From Nonomuraea cavernae (lineage in GTDB: Bacteria; Actinomycetota; Actinomycetes; Streptosporangiales; Streptosporangiaceae), in contig NZ_BMNH01000002.1 in NCBI RefSeq assembly GCF_014646355.1, positions 62,001-126,000 of the forward strand: a stretch of DNA of 64,000 nucleotides. Reading direction: 5' to 3'. The translations under genes were made by a program, and so were the position numbers. The notes under the pieces were generated by a model. That model was not told the origin of the DNA. It worked only from the letters and a program-made list of their open reading frames with translations, and did no database searches. Every line of letters starts with the position of its first letter. Position 1 is the stretch's first letter. Of this stretch, positions 30,241-51,008 are shown piece by piece.

Positions 30241-30310
30241 CGACACATCCCGCCGTACGTGGCTAAGGAGGAAGGGGAAGATCACGCGACTCAGAAGACG
30301 ATCAGCTCAC

Positions 30311-30328: not shown

Positions 30329-30340
30329 AGGAAGGACCCC

Positions 30341-30804: not shown

Positions 30805-30813
30805 AGCGCTAGC
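30796..30813 (+). repeat. Dispersed 18-nt element, copy 9
   Basis: GCAAGC-TGAAGC-GCTAGC, at the start of the 220-nt gap before the secreted-protein gene at 31027. Apart from the promoter at 30992, the gap shows nothing else I can name. Confidence 0.75.
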
Positions 30814-30991
30814 ACGTGAGATTCGTCCAGAGACACGTGGAGCGTGATCAACGACGCTCAACGGGCCACGTAGCGCCACGCAAGGGAAAAGACGCCACAA
30901 GGGCAGCAGCAGGCATAACACAAAAGGACGTTTGGCCAGGCCACAACGTCGGGCGCCCGGAAAATTCCTGAAATTCGGCACCGGAAAATGG

Positions 30992-31020
30992 TTGTCACGA
31001 AAACAGGATGACCCTAGGAT
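30992..31020 (+). promoter_or_regulatory. Strong sigma70-like promoter, leaderless transcript predicted
   Basis: TTGTCA (30992-30997), 17-nt spacer, TAGGAT (31015-31020). The ATG at 31027 lies 7 nt after the -10 box, where transcription should start, and no Shine-Dalgarno fits between. The mRNA is probably leaderless, as is common in actinomycetes. Confidence 0.7.
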
Positions 31021-31026
31021 AGAGAC

Positions 31027-31722: not shown

Positions 31723-31724
31723 TC

Positions 31725-32363
31725 ATGACTGAGAACACGACCGCCCCCGCCACTCCTGAGATCAAGCTCACCACCGAGCAGGCCACCCTGCTGCTGCCCG
31801 TGTTCGCGTGGCTGACTCGCGCCGAGACCCCCAAGGGCGGCTCCGCCCGTGGCACCGCTAGCTTCTGGTCGTTCGTCGGCGGGATGCGCCCCAGCATCGC
31901 CGCCCTGGTCGCCCTCCACCAGATGGAGGAGTTGGCCGGTGACGTGGTCATCACCGAGGAACTGATCGAGGTTCCCGAGATCGCCGACTACCCCGCCACG
32001 TACGTGTACGCCCAGGGCACCGGCAAGCAGGCCAAGCGTTACACCACGCTCCGCCAGTACGGGATGTACCTCCTCGCGGTGGACGCCGAGCACCCGCTGG
32101 CCAAGACCGCTGGCGCAAGCGTCCCGGACCTCACGAAGTGGATCAAGGATGTGATCCCCGACGCCATGGACCGGATCAAGGCCCAGCGTGAAGCCGCCCG
32201 CAAGGCCGCCGAGCGCAAGGCCGCCGGGGAGCTGCTGGAGAACACCATCAAGGACCTCAAGGCGGCAATCGAGGTGGCCCGTACGCACGGGCTGGACGTG
32301 ACCGCCCAGGAAGCCATGCTCGCGACCTTCGAGGCCCAGCAGCAGGCCACCACCAGCAAGTAA
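31725..32363 (+). CDS. Hypothetical protein
   Basis: A 212-aa protein, mostly helical, with an Ala/Lys/Glu-rich coiled region near residues 145-180. ATG with GGAGAA upstream. No family is recognised. It is followed by a strong hairpin. Confidence 0.65.
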   Translation: MTENTTAPATPEIKLTTEQATLLLPVFAWLTRAETPKGGSARGTASFWSFVGGMRPSIAALVALHQMEELAGDVVITEELIEVPEIADYPATYVYAQGTGKQAKRYTTLRQYGMYLLAVDAEHPLAKTAGASVPDLTKWIKDVIPDAMDRIKAQREAARKAAERKAAGELLENTIKDLKAAIEVARTHGLDVTAQEAMLATFEAQQQATTSK

Positions 32364-32370
32364 GCACCAC

Positions 32371-32398
32371 GCCGGGCCGCGTACCCGCGCGGCCCGGC
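32371..32398 (+). terminator. 11-bp perfect GC-rich terminator hairpin
   Basis: Arms 32371-32381 and 32388-32398 pair perfectly around a 6-nt loop, followed by TTCCCTCCC. It lies 7 nt after the stop of the 31725 gene. Confidence 0.7.
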
Positions 32399-32434
32399 TT
32401 CCCTCCCAACCAACCCAGAGCCGGAAGGCGCATC

Positions 32435-32842
32435 ATGTACCGCACCACGACCCCCACCAACGAACTCATCACCGAGGCTGCCGAGGTGTACGTCCTGCTG
32501 TTGACGAACCTGTTCATCCCGGTTGGCTGCCTGGTCGCTGCGACCCAGAACCCCAAGCGTGTCGCCGTGACCTTCGACTTGGGGCACCGCTTCGCGGTGC
32601 AAGACGCGCTCGTCTTCTGGCATGAGGCCATCGCCGCACCTCTCGCCGAAGCGCACAGCGCCGCCCTGGCGCTGGAAGATGTCAGCAAGGCGCGCATGCG
32701 CAGCAAGGCGGGACCCAACTCTCTGGACGCCATGGTCGCGCGTCGCGACGTCAAGCGGCTGCGCGTCATCATCGCCGAGAGCGACGCCACGATCCGTCGT
32801 GAGCTGGTCAAGCTGCAGGAACAGCTGACCCGCAACCTGTAG
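32435..32842 (+). CDS. Hypothetical protein
   Basis: A 135-aa protein. A hydrophobic stretch near residues 18-40 is followed by a charged helical C-terminal half with coiled-coil character (ESDATIRRELVKLQEQLTR). ATG with GGAAGG upstream. No family is recognised. Confidence 0.6.
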   Translation: MYRTTTPTNELITEAAEVYVLLLTNLFIPVGCLVAATQNPKRVAVTFDLGHRFAVQDALVFWHEAIAAPLAEAHSAALALEDVSKARMRSKAGPNSLDAMVARRDVKRLRVIIAESDATIRRELVKLQEQLTRNL

Positions 32843-32856
32843 CGCTCCGCGTCTCC

Positions 32857-32887
32857 GAACCCCGTACGCAGCCAGCGTGCGGGGTTC
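32857..32887. terminator. Terminator hairpin
   Basis: GAACCCCGTACGC (32857-32869) pairs with 32875-32887 (one G-T) around AGCCA, followed by TTCCGTTCC. It ends the 31.7-32.8 kb unit. Confidence 0.7.
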
Positions 32888-33026
32888 TTCCGTTCCCGAG
32901 TCATCGCGCGACCCCCCACCCCCCGGGGCCCCCGGGAGGGGCGGGCGCGGTGGACGTCGGGTTGCCGCGCTGGCTTTTGGTCTTTGCGTCTCTGGTCCTG
33001 GTGTCTGCCTGTCTGGTGTGTGGTGC

Positions 33027-33278
33027 ATGGTTGGTGGTGTGTGGGTGGATCTTGGGGTGGCTGCGCGTAGGGCTGGTGTGGATCGGTCGACGGTGGGCCG
33101 GTGGGTGTCGTCGGGCCGCTTGCGGTGTCTGGTGGTTGACGAGGTGTCGGGGTTGCCGAGGGCTCGTCGGCCAGGGGAGGCGGGGGGCCTGGTGAATGTG
33201 CGGGAGTTGTTGGAGGTGGAGTTGGAGCGCCGCCGTTCGCGGGGCCGGCCTGGGCCACGGTTGCCGTCACATTCGTAG
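33027..33278 (+). CDS. HTH protein, excisionase candidate
   Basis: An 83-aa basic protein: VDLGVAARRAGVDRSTVGRW followed by RARRPGEAGGLVNVRELLEV, a MerR/Xis-type HTH. It lies 1 kb before the tyrosine integrase on the same strand, a usual place for Xis. The start at ATG 33027 is uncertain because no clear Shine-Dalgarno precedes it; an earlier start would add a hydrophobic leader. Confidence 0.5.
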   Translation: MVGGVWVDLGVAARRAGVDRSTVGRWVSSGRLRCLVVDEVSGLPRARRPGEAGGLVNVRELLEVELERRRSRGRPGPRLPSHS

Positions 33279-33301
33279 GAGCGGGGGCGTACGTTGGAGC
33301 T

Positions 33302-33538
33302 GTGGCGGAACGGGCACTCCAACGACGTCGGACGCGCGCCTTGTTGGTAACTCTGTCGTGTCTGTGCATTTTGGCCGGGGTGGCAGCGAACTTCGACGGA
33401 GCACCGACGCTGTCGCAGGTCCTATTCGGCCTGCTCGCGGTGATCTGTGCGGGCTTTCTTGCGGCGGTGACGCCTCCTACGGAGTTGGGTTCACCGCCGG
33501 CCTTGTCGTTGCCCGTAAAAAAAATGCCCCGGCAATGA
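33302..33538 (+). CDS. Small two-TM protein
   Basis: A 78-aa protein with GTG start behind TTGGAG. Two hydrophobic segments (LLVTLSCLCILAGVAANF and QVLFGLLAVICAGFLAAV) and a basic N-terminus. It sits in the integrase region, where prophage-expressed membrane proteins often lie. Role unknown. Confidence 0.5.
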   Translation: MAERALQRRRTRALLVTLSCLCILAGVAANFDGAPTLSQVLFGLLAVICAGFLAAVTPPTELGSPPALSLPVKKMPRQ

Positions 33539-33571
33539 CTCTCCGTGTGTTCGCGAGAACCTAATTCGTCC

Positions 33572-33601
33572 TTGACGTCCTCGGCGGGCGTATCTTAAAG
33601 T
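33572..33601 (+). promoter_or_regulatory. Sigma70-like promoter
   Basis: TTGACG (33572-33577), 18-nt spacer, TAAAGT (33596-33601), about 70 nt before the ATG at 33672. Confidence 0.55.
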
Positions 33602-33671
33602 GTCTGCCCCCGTGAGCGGGTTACCCGTACGCGCCCGGTAACGATCTGTTGCTGACCTGCGATTCTCTGTC

Positions 33672-34130
33672 ATGTCGGGTTTCCAGCTGGTGGCGTCTCT
33701 CGTGGGTTCTCTCGCCTGGCCTGTGGCTGTGGTGGTGGCGGTGTGGGTGTTGCGCCGTTCGTTGGCTGCCGCGTTGGGGCGGGCAAAGCGTGTGGAGGCT
33801 GCGGGGGTGGCAGTGGAGTTGGCGGAGGTGGAGCAGGCTCGGGAGAGCGTGGAGGAGGAGTTGGCGCAGGCCGACGCGGAGGGCGCATCTCTTGAGGCCC
33901 CCGAGGTGGATGAGTTGGTGCAGAAGGCTGCCCAGTTGGGCTGGCACTTGGCGAAGTTGGGGCCGGGCACCACCCCGGATGTCGTGGTGGATCGGTCGGG
34001 GGGGAAACCGGTGGTGCGGTTGCGGGCGGAGGAGAGGTTCCGGAGGTGGCTCGCCTTCAACGCGGTGGCGCAGCGGCAGCGCCCACCCTTGTGGGTGGCA
34101 ATGCACAATCAGCGCCGCCCGAGTGAGTGA
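33672..34130 (+). CDS. Membrane-anchored coiled-coil protein
   Basis: A 152-aa protein. An N-terminal TM segment (SLVGSLAWPVAVVVAVWVLR) is followed by a Glu/Ala-rich coiled coil (residues about 40-80) and a soluble C-terminal part. It has its own promoter and lies next to the integrase, which fits a lysogeny-expressed gene. No family is recognised. Confidence 0.6.
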   Translation: MSGFQLVASLVGSLAWPVAVVVAVWVLRRSLAAALGRAKRVEAAGVAVELAEVEQARESVEEELAQADAEGASLEAPEVDELVQKAAQLGWHLAKLGPGTTPDVVVDRSGGKPVVRLRAEERFRRWLAFNAVAQRQRPPLWVAMHNQRRPSE

Positions 34131-34174
34131 CGCGTGTGGGCGCGCCGGTGGGTCGGAAATACCTCTTCGCGAGT

Positions 34175-34251
34175 TCGTGATCAAGCCCTCCAACTCACGA
34201 TAATGTCCCTTATCGTGAGTTAGAATGATCTTTGAGAGCACTTGATCACGA
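34175..34251. promoter_or_regulatory. Nested inverted repeats upstream of the integrase
   Basis: The outer pair TCGTGATCAAG (34175-34185) and CTTGATCACGA (34241-34251) is perfect over 11 bp. The inner pair AACTCACGATAA (34192-34203) and TTATCGTGAGTT (34210-34221) is perfect over 12 bp with a 6-nt TGTCCC centre. This could be an integrase/Xis binding region or part of attP, or an operator controlling the integrase. The stretch 34131-34338 holds no gene. Confidence 0.6.
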
Positions 34252-34317
34252 GCTGGCCAGAACGCTCTGAAGGCCCGCCCGGCGCCACCCAACGCCAGGG
34301 GAACGATCAACCAACAC

Positions 34318-34335
34318 GCAAGCAGAACGGCTTAC
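34318..34335 (+). repeat. Dispersed 18-nt element, copy 11
   Basis: GCAAGC-AGAACG-GCTTAC (one change in the right half). It ends 3 nt before the integrase ATG, so it occupies the ribosome-binding position. Confidence 0.65.
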
Positions 34336-34338
34336 AAG

Positions 34339-35364
34339 ATGACTGTGACCCCCGATCGCCCCGGAGGCCGAGAGGCGATCGGCGAGCTGGAACTCCACGG
34401 CGGCGGCGAGCTGGTGCCCGCCGACGACGCCGCGCTATGGGCCCGGCTCGCCGAACTCGACGCGGCGGCCGAGGCGTTCGAGCCCCGCTCGGAGAACACG
34501 CTGCGTTCGTACGCAAGCGACTGGCGGGTGTGGGAGCGGTACGTCGCCGAGGTGAGCATCCCACTGGAGGCCGGCACGCCGGGCGCGTTCCTTGGGTTCG
34601 TGATCTGGCTCGGCAAGCAGGGCAAGGCACCATCGACGATCGAGCGGAACCTGTACGGCGCGGCGGTGTCCCTGCGGGAACGCGGCGTCGCGGTGCACCC
34701 GAACGGGCCGAAAAAGGCGAAGAAGGCGGTCGACGCGCTCGCCCGCATGCTGGCCGAGGAGGGCGAGCAGCGCGGCCGTGGCCAAGCCCCGCCGCTGACG
34801 GTGATGCAGCTCCGCGCGATGTCGGAGGCGCTGCCGGACACCCTGAAGGGGAGGAGGGACCGGGCGATCCTCACGGTCGGGTTCGGCATGGCGGCGCGCA
34901 GGAGCGAGTTGGCGAACCTGCTCGCCCGCGACGTGGTGGTGACGGAGGAGGGGCTGAAGGTGTTCGCCCGGTATGGGAAGACCGGTGCCCGCTCGCCCGC
35001 GATCAGGAAAGGTGAGAACGAGTGGACGTGCCCCCGGCGTGCCTGGCTGGCGTGGGCGGCGGCTGCGGACCTCGATCCGGACGGTCCCGCGTTCCTGCGT
35101 TTCAACCGGCACAAGATGCTGGGCCCGATCAGCGCGCAGGGTATTGGGATCGCCGTCGCGGACGCGGCCGAGGCGGTGGGCCTGGAGGGCATCACCGGGC
35201 ACAGCATGCGTGCCGGCCTCGCCACGGCGGCGCGGAAGGCCGGGCACGACTACAAGACGATCGCTGAGCAGGGCGGATGGTCACCGAACGGCACCGCGTT
35301 GCACGAGTACCTGCGGATCGTCGATCAGTGGGCAGACAACGCCACGGCGGGCATCGGCATGTGA
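34339..35364 (+). CDS. int: Tyrosine recombinase / phage integrase
   Basis: A 341-aa protein. The N-terminal SAM-like core-binding domain (residues about 45-140, SENTLRSYASDWRVWERY) is followed by the catalytic domain. Catalytic residues are visible: R187 in ARRSEL, H288-x-x-R291 in GHSMRAG, W314 in GGWSP and nucleophile Y324 in LHEYLR. It would integrate the phage at attB. No normal Shine-Dalgarno lies between the dispersed element and the ATG, so translation may be regulated. Confidence 0.93.
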   Translation: MTVTPDRPGGREAIGELELHGGGELVPADDAALWARLAELDAAAEAFEPRSENTLRSYASDWRVWERYVAEVSIPLEAGTPGAFLGFVIWLGKQGKAPSTIERNLYGAAVSLRERGVAVHPNGPKKAKKAVDALARMLAEEGEQRGRGQAPPLTVMQLRAMSEALPDTLKGRRDRAILTVGFGMAARRSELANLLARDVVVTEEGLKVFARYGKTGARSPAIRKGENEWTCPRRAWLAWAAAADLDPDGPAFLRFNRHKMLGPISAQGIGIAVADAAEAVGLEGITGHSMRAGLATAARKAGHDYKTIAEQGGWSPNGTALHEYLRIVDQWADNATAGIGM

Positions 35365-35429
35365 GCCGTCTGGCGCACAGACGTGACCAAAGATTGCCGC
35401 TTGGGCATATTGACTACTTTACGACTATT

Positions 35430-35834
35430 CTACCTTTTCGTGCGCCGACGCGCGGTTTGCGTGCTGGGACTGGCAACTGCGGCAGATAGAACAGGCGTAT
35501 CGCCGATGGGCTGAAGGGGATCAGGACCCTTTCCCAGCACGAGACGCCACACACTGAGAACTAGACCGAGGGTATCGACGAGTAGCGCAGCGGTGACAGC
35601 AGCAACCGTCGTCGAGCTGAAGTTCTGGTGATTAAAGATCACCCAGCCGCTAGTGAACGCGATGCCCGGCAGAAGCACCACGGATGTCCAACCCATCACA
35701 AGCTTCAAAAGAAACCAACGGCCATCTTGCCGCTTACGTTGGTCAAACGTCTCCTGCATCTGGCGAAGTTGTTCTTGTGCTCGCAACAGCTCGATCTCTT
35801 CGCCGACGACTCCACCCGACGATTCAGGAGTCAT
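35430..35834 (-). CDS. Two-TM membrane protein partner of the TIR gene
   Basis: A 134-aa protein. The N-terminal 40 residues form a charged coiled coil (LLRAQEQLRQMQETFDQRKR). Two TM segments follow (VMGWTSVVLLPGIAFTSGWV and VAAVTAALLVDTLGLVLSVW), then a Pro/Ser/Arg tail. The start lies inside the end of the TIR gene (11-nt overlap), so the two are translationally coupled. G+C is lower than in the phage core. It may be a membrane effector or anchor for the TIR protein. Confidence 0.65.
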   Translation of the reverse strand: MTPESSGGVVGEEIELLRAQEQLRQMQETFDQRKRQDGRWFLLKLVMGWTSVVLLPGIAFTSGWVIFNHQNFSSTTVAAVTAALLVDTLGLVLSVWRLVLGKGPDPLQPIGDTPVLSAAVASPSTQTARRRTKR

Positions 35835-36510
35835 TTCGCGACCTCGCGGAGTAGATGGTCAGCCCTGTAGCGGTTAATGTGGAAGCGACTGAGATTACCA
35901 ATGCTATGGCGGTCTGCGCCTCCGAACCGGCAGTGATCGACACTGCAGCTAGTATCGTGGCCACGACGCCAGCTACGAGACCGACGATGCTGGTCACCCG
36001 GGACAGTGCCCTCCAGGACTTGGCTGATGCTGCAGCTTGCTGGGCAGCCAACAAGTGCAGCTTTGCCAGCTCAACTTCAACAGTCACGCGCTCCAGGTTG
36101 ACATTCGGATGCGAGACGACTCTGGTGAGGCTTTCCTGAATAAGATCCGCGACCCGATCCGGATCTCTCGCAATTTGAGCGCCGATATATTGAAACCTAG
36201 ATACAAGCGGCGACAGTTCCGCGCCTCTATCCAGCATCACCGGTATTAGCCGGATATTCGGATCATTAAGTGTCCGAGCTGTTGCAGCGGCTACTTCACG
36301 ATCGATCCAGGCGCTCCCCGCAGAAGACTTGGATGCGAGCAAGACGAAGGCATCAGCCTCGTCCATCATTCTTCGAAGCTCAGTGGCCCAACTCGCCCCA
36401 GCAGTGATCGCCATATCGCTTGACGTGTCGATGCCGCGCCGCCGAAGGGCCTCAGACAGCTTACGGGCATAAGGCTCATCTTCCCGTGCATAGCTGACGA
36501 AGACCTTCAT
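35824..36510 (-). CDS. TIR-domain membrane protein
   Basis: A 228-aa protein. Residues 1-115 are a TIR domain: MKVFVSYAREDEPYARKLSE, AITAGASWATELRRMMDEAD, FVLLASKSS, then SAWIDREV with E72 in the position of the catalytic glutamate of NAD-cleaving TIR domains. Residues about 160-222 hold two TM segments (SIVGLVAGVVATILAAVSI and AIALVISVASTLTATGLTIY). The start MKVF at 36510 follows GGAAGGG. TIR proteins act in bacterial antiphage signalling or NAD depletion. Here it is a prophage-borne moron beside the integrase. Confidence 0.8.
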   Translation of the reverse strand: MKVFVSYAREDEPYARKLSEALRRRGIDTSSDMAITAGASWATELRRMMDEADAFVLLASKSSAGSAWIDREVAAATARTLNDPNIRLIPVMLDRGAELSPLVSRFQYIGAQIARDPDRVADLIQESLTRVVSHPNVNLERVTVEVELAKLHLLAAQQAAASAKSWRALSRVTSIVGLVAGVVATILAAVSITAGSEAQTAIALVISVASTLTATGLTIYSARSRNDS

Positions 36511-37037
36511 TTGACCCTTCCCGCTCATATGCTGCCCGAGCACAGCCAGTCATAGGATATTCTCTCTCAACCTGCCGCGTTATGGGCTTCAACCAGAAGC
36601 GGTACGCGCGATCACCGTATCTAGACGACATAACGCCGTTTGTCATGGCAGCTAGCGCCACAACGGGCGGCCCAACGGGCCGTATCAGCGACACGCCTTG
36701 TCGGGCGCCTGCTTGCGGTACTTGACAACAGTGCATATGCTGCGCGTCAGAGTGGAACACGCATGCCAAAGTGCTTGCATGTTTGCACGCTCGCGTCTCT
36801 GAATCCGCGCGTGTTGGACGTTCACGACTGCCCGCATGCTCTGCGATCCCCCGGAGAGCTGATCTTGTCTCAGACGCTCTGAGACGCGCATAGCTGGAAG
36901 GCCCCGATCCCCGAGATGGGACGGGGCCTTCCCCATGACCACCCGACCCCGGCGCGGCCCTGCGTCCGCACGGGGGAGGCGCGGAAAACGTGCCGGGGTC
37001 GGGTTCCCCTCCACCCTCGCCTCCTGGAGGTTCCCTC
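36511..37037. other. Intergenic region between TIR module and modification operon
   Basis: About 525 nt, lower in G+C than the flanks, without a convincing gene. It holds a GCTAGC half-site near 36651, a TTGACA at 36722-36727 with no good -10 partner, a perfect 8-bp hairpin GTCTCAGA-CGC-TCTGAGAC (36867-36885) and a strong hairpin at 36896-36932. Promoters for both divergent operons must lie here. Confidence 0.5.
36896..36932. terminator. GC-rich hairpin before the modification operon
   Basis: GGAAGGCCCCG (36896-36906) pairs with CGGGGCCTTCC (36922-36932), and inner TCCC/GGGA extends the stem. It may stop readthrough or act as an attenuator for the operon starting at 37038. Confidence 0.6.
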
Positions 37038-38689: not shown

Positions 38690-39318
38690 TGCAGCGCTAC
38701 ATCGAGTACATGCGGCTCCCGGACATCCCGTCCGCGATCAGGAACGCCAAGGACCACGACCTGGTCGGGATCCGCGCCTCGATCGAGACGTTCGGCTGCG
38801 TCGTCGCTGGGGAGATCGACGAACGCACCGGCCGGCTCGTCGTCGGCCACGGCCGCAAAGAGGTCCTGGCCATGATGGCCGCCGAGGGCGCCAGCCCTCC
38901 GGAGGGTGTGCAGCTGGACGACGACGGCACGTGGCTCGCGCCGATCGTCCGCGGCTGGTCGTCGAGGTCCGACACGGACGCTGAGGCGTACCTGATCGCT
39001 CACAACCGGACCGGCGAGAAAGGCGGCTGGTACGAAGACGTGTTGGCCCAGTCGCTGCTGGACATCCAGCAGGCAGACACGGCCCTGCTCGCGGCCACGG
39101 GCTACTCCTCCGACGAGCTGGCCAACCTCAAGGAAGTGCTCGCGGTGGACGCGCACGTCACGGTCGGGGTGCACGACGACGAGTACGGCGACGACGGCGG
39201 GGCCGATGACGCTGCGGACGGCCCGTCGCCGGAGGCGTTCCAGTCGTTCGACGACGACATCAGCACCGACTACCAGTGCCCACGCTGCGCGTACGAATGG
39301 AGCGGCAAGCCCCGATGA
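38689..39318 (+). CDS. ParB-like domain protein with zinc motif
   Basis: A 209-aa protein. The N-terminal part (SIETFGCVVAGEIDERTGRL, VVGHGRKEVLAMMAAEG) is a ParB/Srx-type fold with the GHGR-like motif. AYLIAHNRTGEKGGWYED and ATGYSSDEL are typical of phage ParB-like proteins found next to DNA methylases. The C-terminus has CPRCAYEW. It may bind DNA or nucleotides and assist the modification enzymes. ATGA overlap with the methyltransferase. Confidence 0.75.
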   Translation: MQRYIEYMRLPDIPSAIRNAKDHDLVGIRASIETFGCVVAGEIDERTGRLVVGHGRKEVLAMMAAEGASPPEGVQLDDDGTWLAPIVRGWSSRSDTDAEAYLIAHNRTGEKGGWYEDVLAQSLLDIQQADTALLAATGYSSDELANLKEVLAVDAHVTVGVHDDEYGDDGGADDAADGPSPEAFQSFDDDISTDYQCPRCAYEWSGKPR

Positions 39319-40406
39319 CCAAGCCGCCATACCGAGTGCCGTCAATGGCCGAGGTTCGGGCGGTGCCGTGGAACGGCTTCAACGCCATCAGCACCTTCTC
39401 CGGTTGCGGGGGTTCGTCGCTCGGCTACCGCATGGCCGGCCTCCGTATGCTGTGGGCGTCGGAGTTCATCCCCGCGGCCGCCGACACCTACCGGGCCAAC
39501 GCCAGCGAGCACACCGTGCTCGACACCCGCGACATCCGCCAGGTCACTGCCAAGGACATCCTCGACACGGTCAACCTCAAGGCCGGGGAGATCGACCTAA
39601 TGGACGGCTCCCCACCGTGCGCCGCGTTCTCCACCTCCGGCAAGCGAGAAGCCGGGTGGGGCGTCGTCAAGACGTACAGCGACACCCGCCAGCGCGTCGA
39701 CGACCTGTTCTTCGAGTTCACCCGACTCCTGGGCGACCTGCAGCCGCGCACGTTCGTCGCGGAGAACGTCGCGGGCCTGGTGCAGGGCACCGCGAAGGGC
39801 TACTTCAAGGAGATCCTGGCCGCGCTGCGGCGGCCCGGCTACCGCGTCAGCGCGAAGCTACTCGACGCGCAATGGCTCGGCGTCCCGCAGCGCCGTCACC
39901 GGCTCATCTTCGTCGGCGTCCGCGAAGACCTCGCCATGGTGCCCGCCCACCCGAAGCCGCTGACATACCGCTACACGGTGCGCGACGCGGTTGGTGATCT
40001 GCCCGGCGCGTTCGACGACCTGCAGAACGACCCGGAGACTGGGCAGCCGCTCACCCTGCGGGGCTACTCCGTAGAGAAGCTTTGGCACGAGCTCCGCCCC
40101 GGCGAGGGGCACAAGCTGCGGACGAGCCTCAAGCGGCTGAGCTGGGACCAGCCGTGCGCGACCATCGTGGCCAGGGCGGGCACGGCGGGTACCGCGGCCA
40201 TTACCCACCCCGACCACCCGCGATACCCGACTCTCGCGGAGCTACGCCGCCTGGGCGGCTTCCCGGACGACTTCGTGCTCACCGGCAACTACTACCGGCG
40301 GTGGGAGCGCATCGGACGTGCGGTGCCGCCCGTGATGATGGCGCGGATCGCCGAGACCGTCCGTGATGAGCTGCTCGTCCCTCTGCGTGATGCGGGGAGG
40401 ATCTGA
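39315..40406 (+). CDS. C5-cytosine DNA transferase with Arg in motif X (predicted carboxymethyltransferase)
   Basis: A 363-aa C5-cytosine methyltransferase. Motif I is FSGCGGSSLGY, motif IV is DGSPPCAAFS with the catalytic Cys, motif VI is AENV, and motif VIII is QRRHRL. The target-recognition region is short, and GGFPDDFVLTGN leads into motif X. There the usual GNAVPP reads GRAVPP, with R335 (codon 40317-40319) replacing the Asn near the transferred methyl group. An engineered enzyme of this family with a basic residue here accepts carboxy-SAM (from memory of M.MpeI N374K). With a CmoA homolog two genes away, carboxymethyl transfer to cytosine is inferred. Confidence 0.85.
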   Translation: MTKPPYRVPSMAEVRAVPWNGFNAISTFSGCGGSSLGYRMAGLRMLWASEFIPAAADTYRANASEHTVLDTRDIRQVTAKDILDTVNLKAGEIDLMDGSPPCAAFSTSGKREAGWGVVKTYSDTRQRVDDLFFEFTRLLGDLQPRTFVAENVAGLVQGTAKGYFKEILAALRRPGYRVSAKLLDAQWLGVPQRRHRLIFVGVREDLAMVPAHPKPLTYRYTVRDAVGDLPGAFDDLQNDPETGQPLTLRGYSVEKLWHELRPGEGHKLRTSLKRLSWDQPCATIVARAGTAGTAAITHPDHPRYPTLAELRRLGGFPDDFVLTGNYYRRWERIGRAVPPVMMARIAETVRDELLVPLRDAGRI

Positions 40407-41818
40407 TGTGCGGTGTTGTCGCCGGTCTCGGCAAGCTGGACATCGCCCCGGCCGTGGCCGCGCTCACGCATCGCGGTCCGGACGCGGCCAGGACGGCGAC
40501 GGTGGCCGGCGTGCACCTCGGGCACACCCGGCTCGCGGTCCAGGACCTCGACGCCCGATCTGACCAGCCGTACAAGGACGGGCCGGTCACGATCGCGTAC
40601 AACGGCGAGATCTACAACGCCGCTGAGCTGCGCAAGGTCGTGGAGGAGCGCGACCCGGGCCGGGCCTGGTCGACGACCGGTGACACGGAGGTCCTGGCCG
40701 CCGCGCTCGCCGTACTCGGTCCTGACCGGGCGCTGCCGCTGGTGAACGGCATGTTCGCCGTGGCGTGGGCAGATGAGCGTCGCCCCGGCGTGCTCCACGT
40801 CGCCCGCGATCGGCACGGCGAGATCCCGCTACACCTGCACCTGGCGCAGCCGGTCATGGCCGCGTCGGAGCTGAAGGCGTTCGCCGCGGTGGGCCGCCCC
40901 ATGGCGTCGCACCTGATCGCTGACGTCCCCTCTGGCCAGTGGGGGACGATCCATGGTGGCCGCGCCTCCTGGTCGCGGTTCCACACCCAGCGGTGCACGC
41001 CGGCGGGCTACACCTTGGCGCAGGCGTCGACCCGGTTGAAGGGCGCGCTGGCGCAGGCCGTGCAACGGCGGCTCATCGCTGACGTGCCGGTGTGCGCGCT
41101 GCTGTCCGGCGGGATCGACTCGGCCGCCATCACGTACGAGCTGGCGCAGCACGTGCCGGGCCTGGTCGCCTACACCGCCCGCATGGACCCCAGGTCGCGG
41201 GACCTGCGGTGCGCGCGCGAGACCGCCCAGCACCTCGGGATCGAGCTGCTCGAGGTCGACATCCCGGCGCCGACCGCCGACGACCTGGCCCGCGTTGTCC
41301 AGGTCATCGAGATGCCGCACAAAGCGCAAGTCGAGATCGGTTGGGCATGCTTGCTGCTCGCCGAGCGGATCCGCTCGGACGGCTTCAAGGTCACCTACTC
41401 CGGCGAGGGGTCCGACGAGCTGTGGGCCAGCTACGGCTTCGCCTACCACGCGCTGAAGACCACTGACTGGCACATCTACCGGCGCGACCTGATGGCCACC
41501 CAGAGCAGGAAGAACTTCCCCCGCGTCAACAAGACGTTCATGGCGCACTCGGTGGAGGGCCGCCTGCCGTTCTGCGACCCGGACGTGGTCGACCTGGCGC
41601 TGTCTCTGCAGCAGCACGCCGTCGCGGACGGCAAGGCCCACCCCAAGGCCGTGCTCCAGCGGGCATACGCCGGACTGCTGCCCGAGTCCGTGGTGCGTCG
41701 GCCGAAGGTCGCGTTCCAGGACGGCCTCGGGTTGAAGACGGCGATCACGAGCGTGCTGCCGAACCCGGCCCGCTTCTACCGGGCCGAGTACCAGCGCCTC
41801 GTCAGGAGCACAGCATGA
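40406..41818 (+). CDS. Asparagine synthetase-like amidotransferase (predicted modified-base amidase)
   Basis: A 470-aa protein homologous to glutamine-dependent AsnB (E. coli AsnB is about 554 aa). Cys2 is the glutaminase nucleophile (MCGVVAGLG); HRGPD and YNGEIYN complete that domain. The synthetase domain has the P-loop LLSGGIDSAA, YSGEGSDELWASYG and KVAFQDGLG. AsnB adenylates the CH2-COO side chain of aspartate and amidates it; a carboxymethyl group on cytosine is chemically the same end group. One-base overlap with the transferase stop (TGATG) and 4 nt with CmoA. Ordinary Asn synthesis is the alternative. Confidence 0.88.
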   Translation: MCGVVAGLGKLDIAPAVAALTHRGPDAARTATVAGVHLGHTRLAVQDLDARSDQPYKDGPVTIAYNGEIYNAAELRKVVEERDPGRAWSTTGDTEVLAAALAVLGPDRALPLVNGMFAVAWADERRPGVLHVARDRHGEIPLHLHLAQPVMAASELKAFAAVGRPMASHLIADVPSGQWGTIHGGRASWSRFHTQRCTPAGYTLAQASTRLKGALAQAVQRRLIADVPVCALLSGGIDSAAITYELAQHVPGLVAYTARMDPRSRDLRCARETAQHLGIELLEVDIPAPTADDLARVVQVIEMPHKAQVEIGWACLLLAERIRSDGFKVTYSGEGSDELWASYGFAYHALKTTDWHIYRRDLMATQSRKNFPRVNKTFMAHSVEGRLPFCDPDVVDLALSLQQHAVADGKAHPKAVLQRAYAGLLPESVVRRPKVAFQDGLGLKTAITSVLPNPARFYRAEYQRLVRSTA

Positions 41819-42552
41819 GCAACGACACCGACATCGCTGAGCAGTTCGGCGCGGGCGGGTGGGCGTTCACCAGCAACGTCGCCGAGGTGTTCGACGACCA
41901 CGTACGCGCCAGCGTGCCGCACTACGACGTGATCCAGGACCTCGTGGCCGAGACGACCGACTGGCTGGTCCCGGCCGGCGGCCTGGTCGCGGACCTCGGC
42001 GCGTCAACCGGCGCGTCAGCGCGGCGCATCCTGCAACGGCACCCGAACCGGGGCATCCGGTTTGCGCTGTACGACGAGCAGCCCGCGATGCTCGACCAGG
42101 CCGCGATCGAGCTGAAGGAGATCGGCGGCGAGCACGACGTCATTCTGAGCGCGACCCGCATCCAGCAGGGGCCGCTGGTGCACGAGGACGCGGACCTGAC
42201 GTTGTGCCTGTTCACGTTGCAGTTCCTGCCGCAGCAGGAACGCGTGGACGCGCTGCGGCTCGCGCGGGCGTGCTCGGCTGAGACCGGCGCGCTGATCGTC
42301 GCGGAGAAGATCCGCGCGGTCGATTCGCGGTGGGCGGAGATCGGCACCGACGTGGCGCACGACTACAAGGCGGCGCACGGCATCACGGACGCGTCGATCC
42401 GAGCAAAGTCCCGCGCGCTGCGCGGGGTGCTGAGGCCGTACCCGCAGCAGACGACCATGCAGGCCATGGCCGATGCCGGATGGCACGCGCCGGAGGTCCT
42501 GTTCCGGTGGCATTCGTGGGCGGTGATCGGGGCGTTCGCCTCGGCACAGTAG
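41815..42552 (+). CDS. cmoA: CmoA-like carboxy-SAM synthase
   Basis: A 245-aa class I SAM enzyme close in length and sequence to E. coli CmoA (247 aa): VAEVFDDHVRASVPHYDVI, LVADLGASTGASARRI, LCLFTLQFLPQQERVDALR, GALIVAEKIRAVDSRWAEIG and VAHDYKAAHGITDASIRAKS all have CmoA counterparts. CmoA converts SAM plus prephenate to carboxy-SAM for tRNA cmo5U synthesis. No CmoB is visible here. The substrate-carboxylate arginine (R199 in E. coli, from memory) should lie in the AKSRALRG region; register needs alignment. Coupled to the amidotransferase by ATGA. Confidence 0.85.
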   Translation: MSNDTDIAEQFGAGGWAFTSNVAEVFDDHVRASVPHYDVIQDLVAETTDWLVPAGGLVADLGASTGASARRILQRHPNRGIRFALYDEQPAMLDQAAIELKEIGGEHDVILSATRIQQGPLVHEDADLTLCLFTLQFLPQQERVDALRLARACSAETGALIVAEKIRAVDSRWAEIGTDVAHDYKAAHGITDASIRAKSRALRGVLRPYPQQTTMQAMADAGWHAPEVLFRWHSWAVIGAFASAQ

Positions 42553-42570: not shown

Positions 42571-42963
42571 ATGTGGTTCGACGAGCGCCCGCCCCCGGAC
42601 TGGACCATCGAGCTGCCGCCCGGCATGGAACTGCTGAACAGCAACCAGCGCCTGCATCCGATGGCCAAGGGCCGACTCACGAAGCTGCTACGCCGCGCTG
42701 GCCAGAGAGCATCCCTGGCGGTCGGCCTGCCCCGGCTTGATCGGGTGTACGTCGTCGGCGAGCTCCGGCCAACCGACCGCCGCCGGCGCGACCCCGGCAA
42801 CTGGTACCCCAGCGCGAAGGCCGCGGTCGACGGCGCGATGACCGACGCCGGCGTGCTGATCGACGACGACGCCGAACACCTGGTCGGCCCGGACATGCGG
42901 CTCGGGCCCGTGGTGAAGGGCGGCCAACTCGTCCTCCACGTCTGGCGCGGCACCCACACCTGA
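42571..42963 (+). CDS. RusA-like Holliday junction resolvase
   Basis: A 130-aa protein. LNSNQRLHPMAKGRLTKLLR, then DRRRRDPGNWYPSAKAAVDG, MTDAGVLIDDDAEHLVGPDM match the RusA family, with the acidic residues (RRDPxN and DDD) that bind magnesium. It resolves branched DNA before packaging. ATG with GGGGGTG upstream. It sits between the modification genes and terminase, a usual place. Confidence 0.88.
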   Translation: MWFDERPPPDWTIELPPGMELLNSNQRLHPMAKGRLTKLLRRAGQRASLAVGLPRLDRVYVVGELRPTDRRRRDPGNWYPSAKAAVDGAMTDAGVLIDDDAEHLVGPDMRLGPVVKGGQLVLHVWRGTHT

Positions 42964-43011: not shown

Positions 43012-43488
43012 ATGGTTTCCAGCAAGAAGCGCGCATCGGCCACCGTCGTTGCCGAGCGTAGGGCCAAGGCCGTACAGATGCGGATCGCGGGCATCAGCCC
43101 CACGATCATCGCCGAGAACCTCGGCTACTCCGGTTCCGCGGCCGTCATCAAGGACATCACCCGCTCGATGCAGAAGGCCGCCAAGGCTGAGCATCTCGCG
43201 TCGGAGCACCTGCTGCAGATTGAGATCGACCGGCTGGACCGGCTCATGGCGTCCGTCTGGGCCAAGGCCCTGTCTGGCGATGTGAAGGCCGTCGACCAGG
43301 CCGAGAAGCTGATCGCCCGCCGGTGCTCGTTGCTGGGGCTGGACCTGATTAACCGTAACGGGTCGGAGAACAGCGACGTCGTCAGCCTCCTGGGCAACCT
43401 GTTCGCGTCGCTGCAGGCCCGGAACGCCCCGGACGACGTGGCGGTCGAGGTCGTCGACGCCATCGAGACCGGCGAGGACAGCCAGTGA
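43012..43488 (+). CDS. terS: Terminase small subunit
   Basis: A 158-aa protein. A basic N-terminal HTH (RAKAVQMRIAGISPTIIAEN, GYSGSAAVIKDI) is followed by a helical oligomerisation region and an acidic C-terminus. It would recognise the packaging site and load the large subunit. It ends in a GTGA overlap with terL. Confidence 0.75.
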   Translation: MVSSKKRASATVVAERRAKAVQMRIAGISPTIIAENLGYSGSAAVIKDITRSMQKAAKAEHLASEHLLQIEIDRLDRLMASVWAKALSGDVKAVDQAEKLIARRCSLLGLDLINRNGSENSDVVSLLGNLFASLQARNAPDDVAVEVVDAIETGEDSQ

Positions 43489-44780
43489 GTCTGGCGGTTG
43501 TCACGCTGTCGCCTGCGCAGGAGCGCAGCATCGCGGAGTCCACGGCGCGGATCAACTGCTGGACGGGCAGCGTGAGAAGTGGGAAGACGATCGCCTCGTT
43601 GCTCCGCTTCTTGATTTTCGTGGCGCAGGCGCCGCGTGGTGGCCACCTGGTGGTCGTCGGCAAAACGAGCGACACGATCGCGCGAAATGTGTTCGAGCCG
43701 CTGATGGACCCGTCGCTGACGGGGCCAGTAGCGCGGCGCATCTTTTACACGCGCGGCGCGGTCACCGCGAACATTCTGGGCCGCCGTGTCGAGATCATCT
43801 CCGCGAACGACGTCCGGTCGGAGTCGCGACTGCGAGGCTTGACCTGCGCAGGCGCTTACGTCGACGAGGCGACCCTGATTCCTGAGGCGTTCTGGGACCA
43901 GCTGCTCGCCCGCTGCTCCGTCCCTGGTAGCAAGATCTTTTGCACGACGAATCCCGATGCGCCAAACCACTGGCTGAGGAAGAGATTCCTGCTCAGGGCC
44001 CATGAGCTGGACCTGAAGTGGTGGCACTTCACGCTGGACGACAACCCGAGCTTGGACCCGATCTACGTGGCCAATCTCAAGGACGAGTACACCGGCCTGT
44101 GGTACCGCCGGTACGTGCTCGGCGAATGGTGCATGGCCGAAGGCGCCATCTTCGACATGTGGGACCCTGACCGGCACATCGTGGACGAGCTGCCGCTCAT
44201 GGAACGGTGGCTCGGTGTGGGCATCGACTATGGCACGGTCAACCCGTTCTCGGCCCTGCTCGCCGGGGTGTCCACCCCGGACGTGGACGGGCAGCGGCGC
44301 ATCTACCTGGCCAGCGAGTGGCGATGGGACTCCCGCCTTGAACGGCGGCAGCTGACCGACGCGGAATACTCGGCGAAGATCACCGAATGGCTGGACAACG
44401 TGCCGGACACCTACGGGCCCGGCACGCGGGGTCTCAGGCCTGACTGGATCATCGTCGACCCCAGCGCGGCGAGCTTCGTTACCCAGCTCCACCACGACGG
44501 GCTGTTGCCACAGCTCGGCGACAACGCCGTACTCGACGGCATCCGCACCGTCAGCAACCTGATCGCTGGGGACCTGCTGCGGGTGCATCGCTCCTGCCAC
44601 GGCTGGCTCGGCGAGGTCGGCTCCTACTCCTGGGACGACCGGAAAGCCGAGCGAGGTGACGACGCCCCGGTGAAGGTCGATGACCACAGCGTTGACGCTG
44701 GCCGGTACATCCTGCACACCACGCAGGCGGCCTGGATGCCGCTGATGGAGCGCATGTCCGACTACTGGCGCAAGCCATAA
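43485..44780 (+). CDS. terL: Terminase large subunit
   Basis: A 431-aa PBSX-type terminase. The ATPase domain has Walker A GSVRSGKT and Walker B AGAYVDEAT. The nuclease domain begins about residue 240 (GVGIDYGTVNPFSAL with the first metal Asp, WIIVDPSAASF with the second, and VDDHSVDAGRY near the third). It pumps DNA into proheads and cuts it. GTG start, coupled to terS. Confidence 0.93.
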   Translation: MSLAVVTLSPAQERSIAESTARINCWTGSVRSGKTIASLLRFLIFVAQAPRGGHLVVVGKTSDTIARNVFEPLMDPSLTGPVARRIFYTRGAVTANILGRRVEIISANDVRSESRLRGLTCAGAYVDEATLIPEAFWDQLLARCSVPGSKIFCTTNPDAPNHWLRKRFLLRAHELDLKWWHFTLDDNPSLDPIYVANLKDEYTGLWYRRYVLGEWCMAEGAIFDMWDPDRHIVDELPLMERWLGVGIDYGTVNPFSALLAGVSTPDVDGQRRIYLASEWRWDSRLERRQLTDAEYSAKITEWLDNVPDTYGPGTRGLRPDWIIVDPSAASFVTQLHHDGLLPQLGDNAVLDGIRTVSNLIAGDLLRVHRSCHGWLGEVGSYSWDDRKAERGDDAPVKVDDHSVDAGRYILHTTQAAWMPLMERMSDYWRKP

Positions 44781-47560: not shown

Positions 47561-49132
47561 GTGCCGCTCCCCACTGAAGATCAGGAGTGGCCGCCCCCGC
47601 ATATGCGTGCCGAGACGCGCCTGTACCGGCAGCATGGGGCCTGGTACAGCGGTGACCCTGACCGGCTCGCCGAGGTGTACGGCAACGGGGCGGTGACGCC
47701 GGGCCTGGGCCTCGACTTGAAGGGCTGGGATCGGCCGCTGCAGTTCGCTGGCGGCGCGGTCGGCCGCGTTGCCCGGTGGTTCTGGGGCAGCCCGATCCCC
47801 GCCGGACAGTCGAGGTCGACGAAACTCCACGTCCCGCTGGCGGCGGACATCGCAGCCAAGAGCGCTGACCTGCTATTTTCTGAGCCGCCGACGCTGCGCG
47901 GCTCGGGGAAGAAGACGCAGAAGCGGCTCGACAAGATCTTGAACGAAGGCAGCGTCTATGCCGGGCTGTTGGAGGCCGGCGAGCTGGACAGCGCGTACGG
48001 CGGCGTCTATCTGCGGGTCGGTTGGGACACCGAGATGGCTGACCATCCGGTGGTCGACTCAGTCCCGGCCGACAGCGCGGTGCCGGAGTTCCACTCGGGC
48101 AGGCTGGCGGCGGTGACGTTCTGGCGGGTCGTGGGCGAAGATCAGAAAGTCGTGTGGCGGCACCTGGAGCGACACGAACGCGGGCGGGTTTACCACGGCC
48201 TCTACCAGGGCGACGATGCCCGCCTGGGCCACCCGGTGCCGCTGCAGGACCACCCCGCGACCTCCGGGTTCGCAGAGATGGTCGACGCGGACGGCGGGTT
48301 CGACTCCGGCTATCAAAAGGGCTTGCTTGTCTACTACGTGCCCAACATGCGCCCGCACCGGACGCTGAGGGGCACAGCGCTGGGCCGCTCCGACTACGCC
48401 GGGGTCGAACCCCTGATGGATGCGCTCGACGAGACGTGGACGTCCTGGATGAGGGACCTGCGGCTCGGCAAGGCGCGGATCATTGTGCCCGAGGTGTACC
48501 TGCAGAACACGGGCCGCGGCAAGGGCTCGTACTGGGACCCGGACCGGGAGATCTACAGCGGGCTCGGCATGCTGCCGCCAGCGAACGGCGGCGGCAACAT
48601 GATCACCGTCTCCCAGTTCGACATCCGGGTGCAGGAGCACCAGCAGACCGCCAAGTCCCTGGTCGCGCAGATCCTTCGCGGCGCCGGGTACAGCGTGCAG
48701 TCCTTCGGCGAGGCCGGGGAGGGCGTGGAGGCGACCGCGACGGAGATCCACTCCCGTGAGCGGCAGTCCCTCACCACCCGAGGCCGGAAGATCGGCTATT
48801 GGACGCCCGCGCTGGCGTGGCTGGGCGACTGCCTCCTGCACGTCGACCACTACATCTACAAGTCGAAGGTCACCGCCGAGCGCCCGCAGATCGAATGGCC
48901 GGACGGCGTGTTCCTGGAGACCGAGGCCGTGGCCCGCACCGTGGAACTGCTCAACCGGGCGCAGGCCGCGAGCATCGACACCCGCATCCGGATGATCCAT
49001 CCCGACTGGGATGACGAGCAGGTGAGTGCGGAGATGAAGCGGCTGCGGGACGAGATGGGCCTGAACGTGAAGGACCCGGACTTGTTCTCTGACCAGATCA
49101 TCCCCGACGTCGCTGACGACCTCGATGGCTGA
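47561..49132 (+). CDS. Portal protein
   Basis: A 523-aa protein with GTG start behind AAAGAGAGAGGG. The length, position between terminase and MuF, and helical DNA-channel region fit siphophage portals. Segments such as LHVPLAADIAAKSADLLFSEP, SRERQSLTTRGRKIGYWTPA and RIRMIHPDWDDEQVSAEMK are typical of SPP1-like portals of actinophages. It forms the ring at the head vertex. It overlaps the MuF gene by 8 nt. Confidence 0.85.
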   Translation: MPLPTEDQEWPPPHMRAETRLYRQHGAWYSGDPDRLAEVYGNGAVTPGLGLDLKGWDRPLQFAGGAVGRVARWFWGSPIPAGQSRSTKLHVPLAADIAAKSADLLFSEPPTLRGSGKKTQKRLDKILNEGSVYAGLLEAGELDSAYGGVYLRVGWDTEMADHPVVDSVPADSAVPEFHSGRLAAVTFWRVVGEDQKVVWRHLERHERGRVYHGLYQGDDARLGHPVPLQDHPATSGFAEMVDADGGFDSGYQKGLLVYYVPNMRPHRTLRGTALGRSDYAGVEPLMDALDETWTSWMRDLRLGKARIIVPEVYLQNTGRGKGSYWDPDREIYSGLGMLPPANGGGNMITVSQFDIRVQEHQQTAKSLVAQILRGAGYSVQSFGEAGEGVEATATEIHSRERQSLTTRGRKIGYWTPALAWLGDCLLHVDHYIYKSKVTAERPQIEWPDGVFLETEAVARTVELLNRAQAASIDTRIRMIHPDWDDEQVSAEMKRLRDEMGLNVKDPDLFSDQIIPDVADDLDG

Positions 49133-51008
49133 CCTGATGGAGGCGGTGGACGAGCGTATCGCGTTCGCCGCCTCGATCTCTGCCAGGTACGCCGAGGCTG
49201 AGGAGCACCTGTTCGAGGTCATCGCCAAGGCGCTGGCCAAGGGCGGGAACACGCCGCAGCAGGCGAGCGCCCGGCTTGCCGAGGTTCAGGCGCTCGGCCT
49301 GCAGGCTGAGAAGGTCCTCAAGGAGTTGGAAGCGCTCGCGTCCAAGTCCCTTGAGGAGGGCGTCACGAAGGCGTGGCAGGACGGCTTCGTGCGGGCGAGC
49401 CAGGAGCTGGAGCGCTTGGGCGAGGACCAGGGCATCACTCCTGGGAAGGGTCTGGCGCAGCTGCTGAAGGAGGCGCTGGGCCTGCTGCCGCCCCTCACCA
49501 CGGGGGCGTTGCGGATGGTCAACGACGTCTACCGTCAGGTGATCGCTGAGACGACGCCGTTGGCGTTGACCGGCGCGATAACGCGGGAGCAGGCGACGAC
49601 CCAGGCGCTGCAGAAGTTCGCCGCGAAGGGCATCACGTTTTTCGACGGCAAGAACCGGACGTGGTCCATCTCCAGCTACGCGGAGATGGCGGCTCGTACG
49701 GCGATGGCGCGGGCAGCGAACGAGGGGCACCTGCAGACGCTGGCCGCGAACGGCCGTGACCTGGTCATGGTGTCGCGGGCGCCGTACCGGTGCCCGAGAT
49801 GCTTGCCGTGGGAAGGCAAGGTGCTGTCCCAGACCGGCTCGACCGGGGACCGGCAGGAGAAGAACGTCCTGACGGGCGAGATGGTGACCGTGCGCGTCGC
49901 GGGCACGGTGGCTCAGGCCCGAGCGGCGGGCCTGCAGCACCCGAACTGCAAGCACACCTTCGGCGTCTACCTGCCGGGGATGACGAAGCCGCCGCCGAAG
50001 GTGGAAGCGAAGGGCACGTACGAGGACACGCAGCAACAGCGGTACCTCGAACGGCAGATCCGGGGGTGGAAGCGACGCGCGGCGGCGGCCCCGGCGGGCA
50101 GCCCGGAGAAGAAAGTCGCGGAGCAGCACGCCAAGGCGTACCAGGCCCAGATGAAGGAGCACCTGGACAAGACCGGGCTGCTGCGGCAGTCGTCTCGTGA
50201 GCGGATCCGCCCCGATGAGACAACGTCTCCGGATCTCCACCCGTCATTGAAGCCTCCGAAGCCCAAGCCGGCACCGGCTGGCCCGGCGGCATCTACCACG
50301 CAAGCAAAACAGCTTGCAGCTACTGCGCCGACCATCAGCGGCCGTACGTCGTCGATGCGAGACGCTGCCCGCCATCGGACTAACGCTGAGGGGCTGCAGT
50401 GGATTCAGTCCAAGATGCCCGGTATCCCTAAGAAGGGATGGGCTCGGGATGAGCTGCAGGCAATTCGGAAGTACACGGGCTTCTCGTACAGTCCGATGAA
50501 CAGGGCTCTGAGGGGTCCTGCTGGTACCGGCAGCCCTGAGACTCGCCAGCTGATCGATGACCTCGATAAGGCGATGACTCGGCAGTCGGTTCCTGAGCCG
50601 GTCATCGTGCATCGAGGCGTTAAGTCGGACTTCACTAAGGCCAACGGCGTGGATCTTGGATCCCAGGAGGAGATGGAAGGGCTGGTCGGCCGGGTCCTAC
50701 GCGACAAGGCATATATGAGTACCAGCGTCGGCCGGAATGCCGCATTTTCCGACAATCCTATTGCTCTCGCAGTGCGTGTTCCTGCTGGTCATAACGCACT
50801 TAATGTGGACGGCCTTACGGTCAATCCCGGTGAGCGTGAATTGATTTTGCGTCGCAATACGACGTATATCGTCCATGCGGTGTATAAAGTGAATAATAAA
50901 TGGTTCGTGGAAGTCGAAGTTGTTCCCGACGATTGGTTTGATAACGGGCCACCTGCCGACTGGCGACCCGATCCGCTGGGTGACGTCGACACGGGATACA
51001 GCTACTAG
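49125..51008 (+). CDS. MuF head protein fused to ADP-ribosyltransferase toxin domain
   Basis: A 627-aa protein. Residues about 1-330 are a MuF/minor capsid domain with the Cys/His set CPRCLPWEGKV and HPNCKHTFGVY. After a Pro/Ala linker (about 370-400, containing a dispersed element) residues about 400-610 form an ADP-ribosyltransferase exoenzyme domain. The R-S-E triad is visible: R497 in VIVHRGV, S532-T-S534 in YMSTSVG and E570-R-E572. The ExE form usually means arginine-specific transfer. G+C falls sharply at the end (about 40% near 50900). It is probably packaged and injected. Confidence 0.87.
   Translation: MADLMEAVDERIAFAASISARYAEAEEHLFEVIAKALAKGGNTPQQASARLAEVQALGLQAEKVLKELEALASKSLEEGVTKAWQDGFVRASQELERLGEDQGITPGKGLAQLLKEALGLLPPLTTGALRMVNDVYRQVIAETTPLALTGAITREQATTQALQKFAAKGITFFDGKNRTWSISSYAEMAARTAMARAANEGHLQTLAANGRDLVMVSRAPYRCPRCLPWEGKVLSQTGSTGDRQEKNVLTGEMVTVRVAGTVAQARAAGLQHPNCKHTFGVYLPGMTKPPPKVEAKGTYEDTQQQRYLERQIRGWKRRAAAAPAGSPEKKVAEQHAKAYQAQMKEHLDKTGLLRQSSRERIRPDETTSPDLHPSLKPPKPKPAPAGPAASTTQAKQLAATAPTISGRTSSMRDAARHRTNAEGLQWIQSKMPGIPKKGWARDELQAIRKYTGFSYSPMNRALRGPAGTGSPETRQLIDDLDKAMTRQSVPEPVIVHRGVKSDFTKANGVDLGSQEEMEGLVGRVLRDKAYMSTSVGRNAAFSDNPIALAVRVPAGHNALNVDGLTVNPGERELILRRNTTYIVHAVYKVNNKWFVEVEVVPDDWFDNGPPADWRPDPLGDVDTGYSY
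50300..50317 (+). repeat. Dispersed 18-nt element, copy 13 (perfect dyad)
   Basis: GCAAGC-AAAACA-GCTTGC, a perfect inverted repeat. It lies in frame inside the linker between the MuF and ART domains, encoding QAKQLA. Confidence 0.85.

Follow-up and report, generated by a model that had tools for sequence, protein, structure and literature searches.

The 64,000-nucleotide stretch of the Nonomuraea cavernae genome analyzed here (RefSeq assembly GCF_014646355.1, contig NZ_BMNH01000002.1, positions 62,001 to 126,000; the window) carries a prophage operon that encodes a ParB-like protein, a DNA cytosine C5-methyltransferase homolog (CmoX), an asparagine synthetase-like ligase (CmoY) and a homolog of CmoA, the synthase of carboxy-S-adenosylmethionine (carboxy-SAM or Cx-SAM). 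An earlier reading of these letters (the sequence-only reading) had described the last three as coupled genes with overlaps of 1-4 nucleotides (nt) and had proposed that they turn phage cytosines into 5-carboxymethylcytosine (5cxmC) and then into 5-carbamoylmethylcytosine. The genes of the operon and the codons discussed below are listed here; SpCmoA, SpCmoX and SpCmoY are the proteins of Synechococcus phage S-B43.

38689..39318, + strand: ParB-like gene, 209 amino acids, first gene of the operon (phrog_620 ParB-like, 78.4 bits)
39315..40406, + strand: cmoX, predicted DNA cytosine C5-carboxymethyltransferase, 363 amino acids (Pfam DNA_methylase, 175 bits; PDB 8YF3)
39618..39620, + strand: codon of the catalytic Cys102 of CmoX, SPPC motif, aligned with SpCmoX Cys98
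40317..40319, + strand: codon of Arg335 of CmoX (IGRAVPP), predicted binder of the Cx-SAM carboxyl, aligned with SpCmoX Arg350
40406..41818, + strand: cmoY, AsnB-like glutamine-dependent ATP amide ligase, 470 amino acids, predicted to amidate 5cxmC (Asn_synthase, 158 bits; GATase_6, 105 bits)
40409..40411, + strand: codon of Cys2 of CmoY, predicted N-terminal glutaminase nucleophile, conserved throughout an alignment of 18 sequences, the window's among them
41105..41122, + strand: PP-loop SGGIDS of CmoY, residues 234-239, in the adenylating half (S234, G235, G236, D238 and S239 invariant in the 18 aligned)
41815..42552, + strand: cmoA, predicted carboxy-SAM synthase, 245 amino acids (TIGR00740, 109 bits; phrog_4752, 171 bits)
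42421..42423, + strand: codon of Arg203 of CmoA, four residues past the E. coli Arg199 position, Arg in SpCmoA too

The open reading frames (ORFs) of cmoX, cmoY and cmoA are all complete and lie on the + strand; cmoX and cmoY share 1 nt (40406) and cmoY and cmoA share 4 nt (41815-41818), in line with the 1-4 nt of the sequence-only reading. Coordinates and bases also place a 4-nt overlap between the ParB-like gene and cmoX, so that the unit is one of four genes, parB-like, cmoX, cmoY and cmoA; the earlier reading was right about all three enzyme families and missed this coupled first gene, whose product gave no Pfam match at 0.001. The high family scores, together with the identical gene order in Streptomyces phage TurkishDelight, make a chance arrangement untenable.

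A pathway of this kind has been known since December 2025. As described in the relevant passages of Yang et al. (Nat Commun, Dec 2025; PMC12783734), a CmoA-CmoX-CmoY system was shown in phage S-B43: its CmoA makes Cx-SAM, its CmoX yields 5cxmC at GC motifs, and its CmoY, the sole CmoY assayed in those passages, ligates glycine to 5cxmC to form a glycine amide. The same passages report that Arg350 contacts the carboxymethyl group in the SpCmoX crystal structure, that wild-type SpCmoX accepted Cx-SAM only, that 5cxmC blocks HhaI in vitro, and that ParBc neighbors are frequent near these systems. They also describe a second ligase cluster (A0A7T0Q3R0), of glutaminase type and second-largest in the survey, which has a glutamine-hydrolysing domain and was predicted to use glutamine-derived ammonia, no soluble protein having been obtained. 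The novelty claimed in the sequence-only reading was thus overstated, since a description of the pathway, including the branch with glutaminase-type ligases, already existed (PMC12783734), and the window cassette adds a member to that branch.

Based on its gene content and conserved residues, the prophage operon is probably a CmoA-CmoX-CmoY-type system that converts cytosines into 5cxmC and then, likely, into 5-carbamoylmethylcytosine. CmoA would form carboxy-SAM from SAM and prephenate, the latter assumed to be supplied by ordinary host metabolism. Cys102 of CmoX would then attack cytosine C6, with the carboxy-SAM carboxyl held by Arg335, and C5 would thereby receive a carboxymethyl instead of a methyl group; these two steps were demonstrated for the S-B43 homologs, as passages of PMC12783734 describe. 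In the third step, the N-terminal half of CmoY would split glutamine via Cys2, and its C-terminal half would adenylate the carboxymethyl group with ATP, ammonia then giving the primary amide. The ParB-like protein may help CmoX to engage DNA, and the modified cytosines would finally block restriction of the replicating phage. The steps proposed by the sequence-only reading find support in their match to the published pathway, in the conserved Arg and in the intact glutaminase half.

The predicted primary amide depends on CmoY. The window protein is of the glutaminase type, with an intact glutamine-hydrolysing domain and a position beside CmoX and CmoA; it is not of the SpCmoY glycine type, as the full GATase half is present, whereas a search for the GATase domain in SpCmoY (L010:5135-5950) gave no match. 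No variation occurs at Cys2, R42, N66, G67, D93, E334, K434 or the PP-loop among the 18 sequences aligned of the 23 glutaminase-type proteins found, window included, and R42, N66, G67, D93, E334 and K434 align with the glutaminase and synthetase residues R49, N74, G75, D98, E348 and K449 of AsnB. The window protein scores below the cut-off of the asparagine synthetase equivalog TIGR01536 (asn_synth_AEB; 254.1 vs 267.1 bits), and the CmoY proteins closest to it come from Nonomuraea (94%, 91%, 91% and 88% identity). A CmoY scan of genome contigs returned at least 80 loci; those listed have 26-36% identity, look like ordinary AsnB relatives and were left unused, and their list says nothing about distribution. 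Since a complete glutaminase half makes ammonia, and hence a primary amide, the natural prediction, CmoY likely uses ammonia and not glycine, and the product of the window cassette is likely 5-carbamoylmethylcytosine.

The best-placed alternative, itself unlikely, accepts that 5cxmC is made and has CmoY add another amine, glycine or hydroxylamine, so that the final base would not be a primary amide. The TsnB9 hydroxyamidotransferase uses hydroxylamine, and window CmoY is closer by sequence to AsnB (136 bits) than to TsnB9 (81 bits). Glycine ligation is the activity of SpCmoY, a protein without a glutaminase domain, whereas window CmoY keeps the glutaminase residues checked, and ammonia is what passages of PMC12783734 predict for the glutaminase cluster.

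It is also improbable that the modification is made but serves mainly to regulate packaging, transcription or lysogeny and not to escape restriction. That possibility draws on the position of the cassette directly before the terminase genes and on the occurrence of relatives of the window ParB-like gene in many fetched loci; it is countered by the fact that phage DNA hypermodification usually serves escape from restriction. The in vitro block of HhaI by 5cxmC (PMC12783734, in part) argues in the same direction.

Evidence for the carboxymethyl transfer comes from CmoX. Its closest PDB sequence is 8YF3, SpCmoX with Cx-SAM (210.6 bits; runner-up, 88.6), to which it is 40% identical. The SpCmoX residues named for Cx-SAM or catalysis in passages of PMC12783734 (F25, E47, F48, D69, C98 and R350) are all kept in the alignment, as F28, E50, F51, D73, C102 and R335, so both family marks, the SPPC motif and an Arg at the R350 position, are present, and a CmoA gene lies two genes downstream. 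To place this Arg in a wider context, viral contig scans provided 99 loci, 80 found with the CmoX alignment and 19 with an Asn-type phage C5-methyltransferase; the residue at the R350 site was typed by profile alignment (98 typed; L319 untyped) and CmoA was sought in the same locus. CmoA accompanies 77 of 81 Arg-type loci and 0 of 17 Asn-type loci (Fisher p 1.3e-15, the loci being related). The direction of the Arg/CmoA link is consistent, and its independence is thin.

These results bear on a further, very improbable explanation, namely that CmoX produces 5-methylcytosine like any ordinary C5-methyltransferase, with CmoA and the AsnB-like enzyme as unrelated passengers. Both Pfam and NCBIfam do label CmoX a DNA cytosine methyltransferase; against this stand Arg335, at the place where the Asn-type relatives without CmoA have Asn, the identity of the nearest solved sequence, SpCmoX, whose wild type takes Cx-SAM only (PMC12783734, in part), and the gene order kept in TurkishDelight. 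As a separate observation, two staphylococcal phage C5-methyltransferases adjoining CmoA (L004:7491-8498 and L005:6681-7679) have Gly at the motif X site, neither Arg nor Asn, and would escape the published Arg350 filter.

Apart from the prophage CmoA (108.5 bits), the host genome has no strong CmoA match (next, 29.8 bits), and a CmoB search of that genome (8.12 Mb, 99.6% complete) gave nothing near the cut-off (best 32.6 vs 275 bits). The phage would therefore bring its own carboxy-SAM synthase, and a role in transfer RNA (tRNA) is unlikely, as the sequence-only reading had argued from the missing CmoB. Least probable of all, and rejected for these reasons, is that carboxy-SAM is used to modify the tRNA wobble base or in host metabolism and not for DNA: the classical role of CmoA is in 5-carboxymethoxyuridine (cmo5U) of tRNA and the PHROG family of window CmoA is described as a tRNA methyltransferase, but cmoA is translationally coupled to a DNA-transferase operon and no tRNA genes were found in the window.

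Several observations weigh against the interpretation of the operon as a cytosine carboxymethylation and amidation system, beginning with the fact that the chemistry, the target motif and the protective role of the window cassette are all predicted. Window CmoA has the CmoA fold, with 27% identity to E. coli CmoA and 25% to SpCmoA; it scores below the curated TIGR00740 cut-off (109.1 vs 193.3 bits) and is therefore filed as CmoA-like, so that the "clear CmoA homolog" of the sequence-only reading should be qualified. That reading had also made intact catalytic residues in both the AsnB and CmoA homologs decisive; the glutaminase and synthetase residues are kept, whereas CmoA has Ser at the position of E. 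coli Arg199, which forms a salt bridge to the Cx-SAM carboxyl and is a mark of carboxy-SAM binding according to passages of PMC3663124. The Arg199 criterion was dropped, as SpCmoA is active with Glu at 199, and both SpCmoA and window CmoA have Arg at E. coli position 203. Since 67 of 167 CmoA matches have Arg at neither place, the argument from a CmoA Arg is soft. In a distant subclass of CmoA-like proteins associated with Arg-type CmoX (L012:5049-5699; the KELSL[SAG]G class, L132-L209), Arg is likewise missing from both candidate carboxyl-binding places.

The same caution applies to the Arg/CmoA link and to the ligase. The CmoX query alignment contained Arg types exclusively, and four of the 81 Arg-type loci show no CmoA (L195, L196, L200 and L320; contig ends are a possible cause). 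L195 and L200 carry identical CmoX, and the 99 loci amount to 92 distinct CmoX ends. In a tree built from 98 rows, among them the reference phages and the window, the Arg/Asn state changes three times, two of them forced by supported branches, and the two independent Arg/Asn pairs are too few for significance in a sign test. The ligase is often missing: 87 of 147 loci with CmoX and CmoA show none (contig ends possibly being the cause), so amidation is not essential to this kind of system. Finally, the sole CmoY assayed in the passages of PMC12783734 takes glycine, not ammonia.

We then considered the surroundings of the operon and its distribution. The other features of interest in the window are:

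34339..35364, + strand: phage integrase, left side (Phage_integrase, 34.7 bits; phrog_216, 52.7 bits)
35824-36543, - strand: TIR-domain protein beside the integrase, possible defence gene (PF13676, 80.5 bits; weak ThsB_TIR match)
42571..42963, + strand: RusA-like resolvase, just downstream of cmoA (phrog_34, 69.2 bits)
43485..44780, + strand: terminase large subunit, start of the packaging and structural genes (phrog_2, 169 bits)
49125-51008: minor capsid protein with a C-terminal ADP-ribosyltransferase domain (Phage_min_cap2, 189.8 bits; ADPrib_exo_Tox, 99.7 bits)
62238-63221, - strand: AbiTii-domain protein among the tail genes, on the opposite strand, possible abortive-infection cargo (PF18864, 95.5 bits)

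The cassette is flanked by the integrase on one side and by RusA-like resolvase, terminase, portal, minor head and coat genes on the other, and, by eye, phage tail-like ORFs run on beyond the window end. Phage genes around the cassette, within a 543-kb contig of an 8.12-Mb genome, indicate a prophage; a search for attachment sites found no direct repeat of at least 18 nt between window positions 30001-37000 and positions 60001-64000 plus the next 20 kb. Among 59 genomes (the source genome, 35 others of the same genus and further genomes), CmoY was found at E <= 1e-80 in two, the source genome and G029 (88% identity), and CmoA at E <= 1e-15 in four, clearly in the source genome, G029 (82%) and G035 (67%) and weakly in G028 (27%). 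This patchy presence suits a mobile element. G029 has an Arg-type CmoX, CmoY and CmoA, with a gap of ~0.9 kb between the latter two. In G035 (locus L409) an Arg-type CmoX abuts CmoA with no CmoY within the 10 kb taken, which may represent a natural variant that stops at 5cxmC.

CmoA was also found next to a different protein family. The CmoA of Gordonia phage Evaa is 49% identical to window CmoA, and its whole 61-kb genome gave no match to the window C5-methyltransferase at E <= 0.001. In Evaa gp2 (L002:702-2237), a ParB-like domain precedes one that contains DFGAG and NSVPF, strings invariant in eight relatives; we take FGAG and SVPF to resemble motifs I and IV of amino-methyltransferases. 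Relatives of gp2 occur in nine further CmoA loci without CmoX (L226, L229, L238, L253, L290, L292, L296, L299 and L301), so that 10 of 28 such loci have the family and 18 do not, several of the latter being cut by contig ends or coming from jumbo phages with CmoX elsewhere. Of five relatives scanned, the four that belong to the gp2 family all fall in phrog_5475, labelled "unknown function." A reverse phrog_5475 scan, whose query was built from CmoA-linked members and thus favors these, gave 265 loci; CmoA is present in 79 of the best 80 (L323-L401 among them; L344 shows none), always downstream on the same strand, with a distance of <=600 nt in 75 and <=1.5 kb in 78, and three of these best 80 have a weak C5-methyltransferase match (51-55 bits). 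Profile comparison showed no homology of phrog_5475 to CmoX or CmoA (probability 0.1 and 1.2%), and a PDB search returned ParB-like chains and, at E 0.03, phosphomethylpyrimidine synthase. These features make phrog_5475 a candidate second, non-C5 carboxymethyl-transferase. A preliminary search with CmoA, described in passages of PMC12783734, gave no N6 or N4 candidates. In seven of 15 loci compared (L226, L229, L299, L323, L340, L353 and L369), the phrog_5475 gene and cmoA have between them a small relative of the Evaa gene gp4 (33-69% identity; annotated "phosphatase"), which is possibly part of the same pathway.

A wider proposal, which we put forward tentatively, is that the prophage carries 5-carbamoylmethylcytosine via its glutaminase-type CmoY and that carboxy-SAM serves phages generally as a currency for DNA alkylation, with the ParB-fused phrog_5475 also drawing on CmoA and carboxymethylating elsewhere than cytosine C5. 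If true, carboxy-SAM would modify phage DNA at positions other than C5 through a CmoA-linked family that has no C5-methyltransferase with it, which would outweigh the main result. Should the predicted amide be confirmed, phages would have at least two end products, a glycine amide and a primary amide, from one carboxyl handle, and "one handle, many amides" would become a tested rule; the window prophage and TurkishDelight offer further glutaminase-type CmoY proteins to try. Among titles and opening abstracts of the open-access literature, none was found that reports 5-carbamoylmethylcytosine in natural DNA; the passages inspected for carbamoylmethyl deal with adenines that carry this group, with 5-carbamoyloxymethylcytosine and with a tRNA base.

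Compared with known systems, the window cassette shares with S-B43 the three enzyme families, the CmoX active-site residues including the Cx-SAM-binding Arg, the lack of CmoB and the CmoA Arg placement; it differs in its CmoY (470 amino acids with a glutaminase half, vs 271 for SpCmoY), in its gene order (ParB-X-Y-A vs A-Y-X) and in being an integrated prophage in an actinobacterium. The engineered M.MpeI N374K accepts Cx-SAM through one basic residue (PMC12783734, in part), a laboratory Lys variant where window CmoX has a natural Arg. E. coli asparagine synthetase B (1ct9) is 28% identical to window CmoY in a structural alignment; the CmoY match to the AsnB chain stops short of its C-terminus, and CmoY differs from it in being coupled to DNA-modification genes. 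With the A0A7T0Q3R0 cluster, which passages of PMC12783734 place in contigs with CmoX, window CmoY has in common an asparagine-synthetase-like ligase with a glutamine-hydrolysing domain; A0A7T0Q3R0, sought as a link to the TurkishDelight protein, was not among the BFVD matches listed (50 of 525). The closest parallel in organization is TurkishDelight gp122-gp125 (NC_073473), which has two ParB-like genes and carries its cassette at the right end of a 93.6-kb linear record, and which has the same order ParB-CmoX-CmoY-CmoA, identities of 58/65/62% (X/Y/A) and a CmoY of the glutaminase type.

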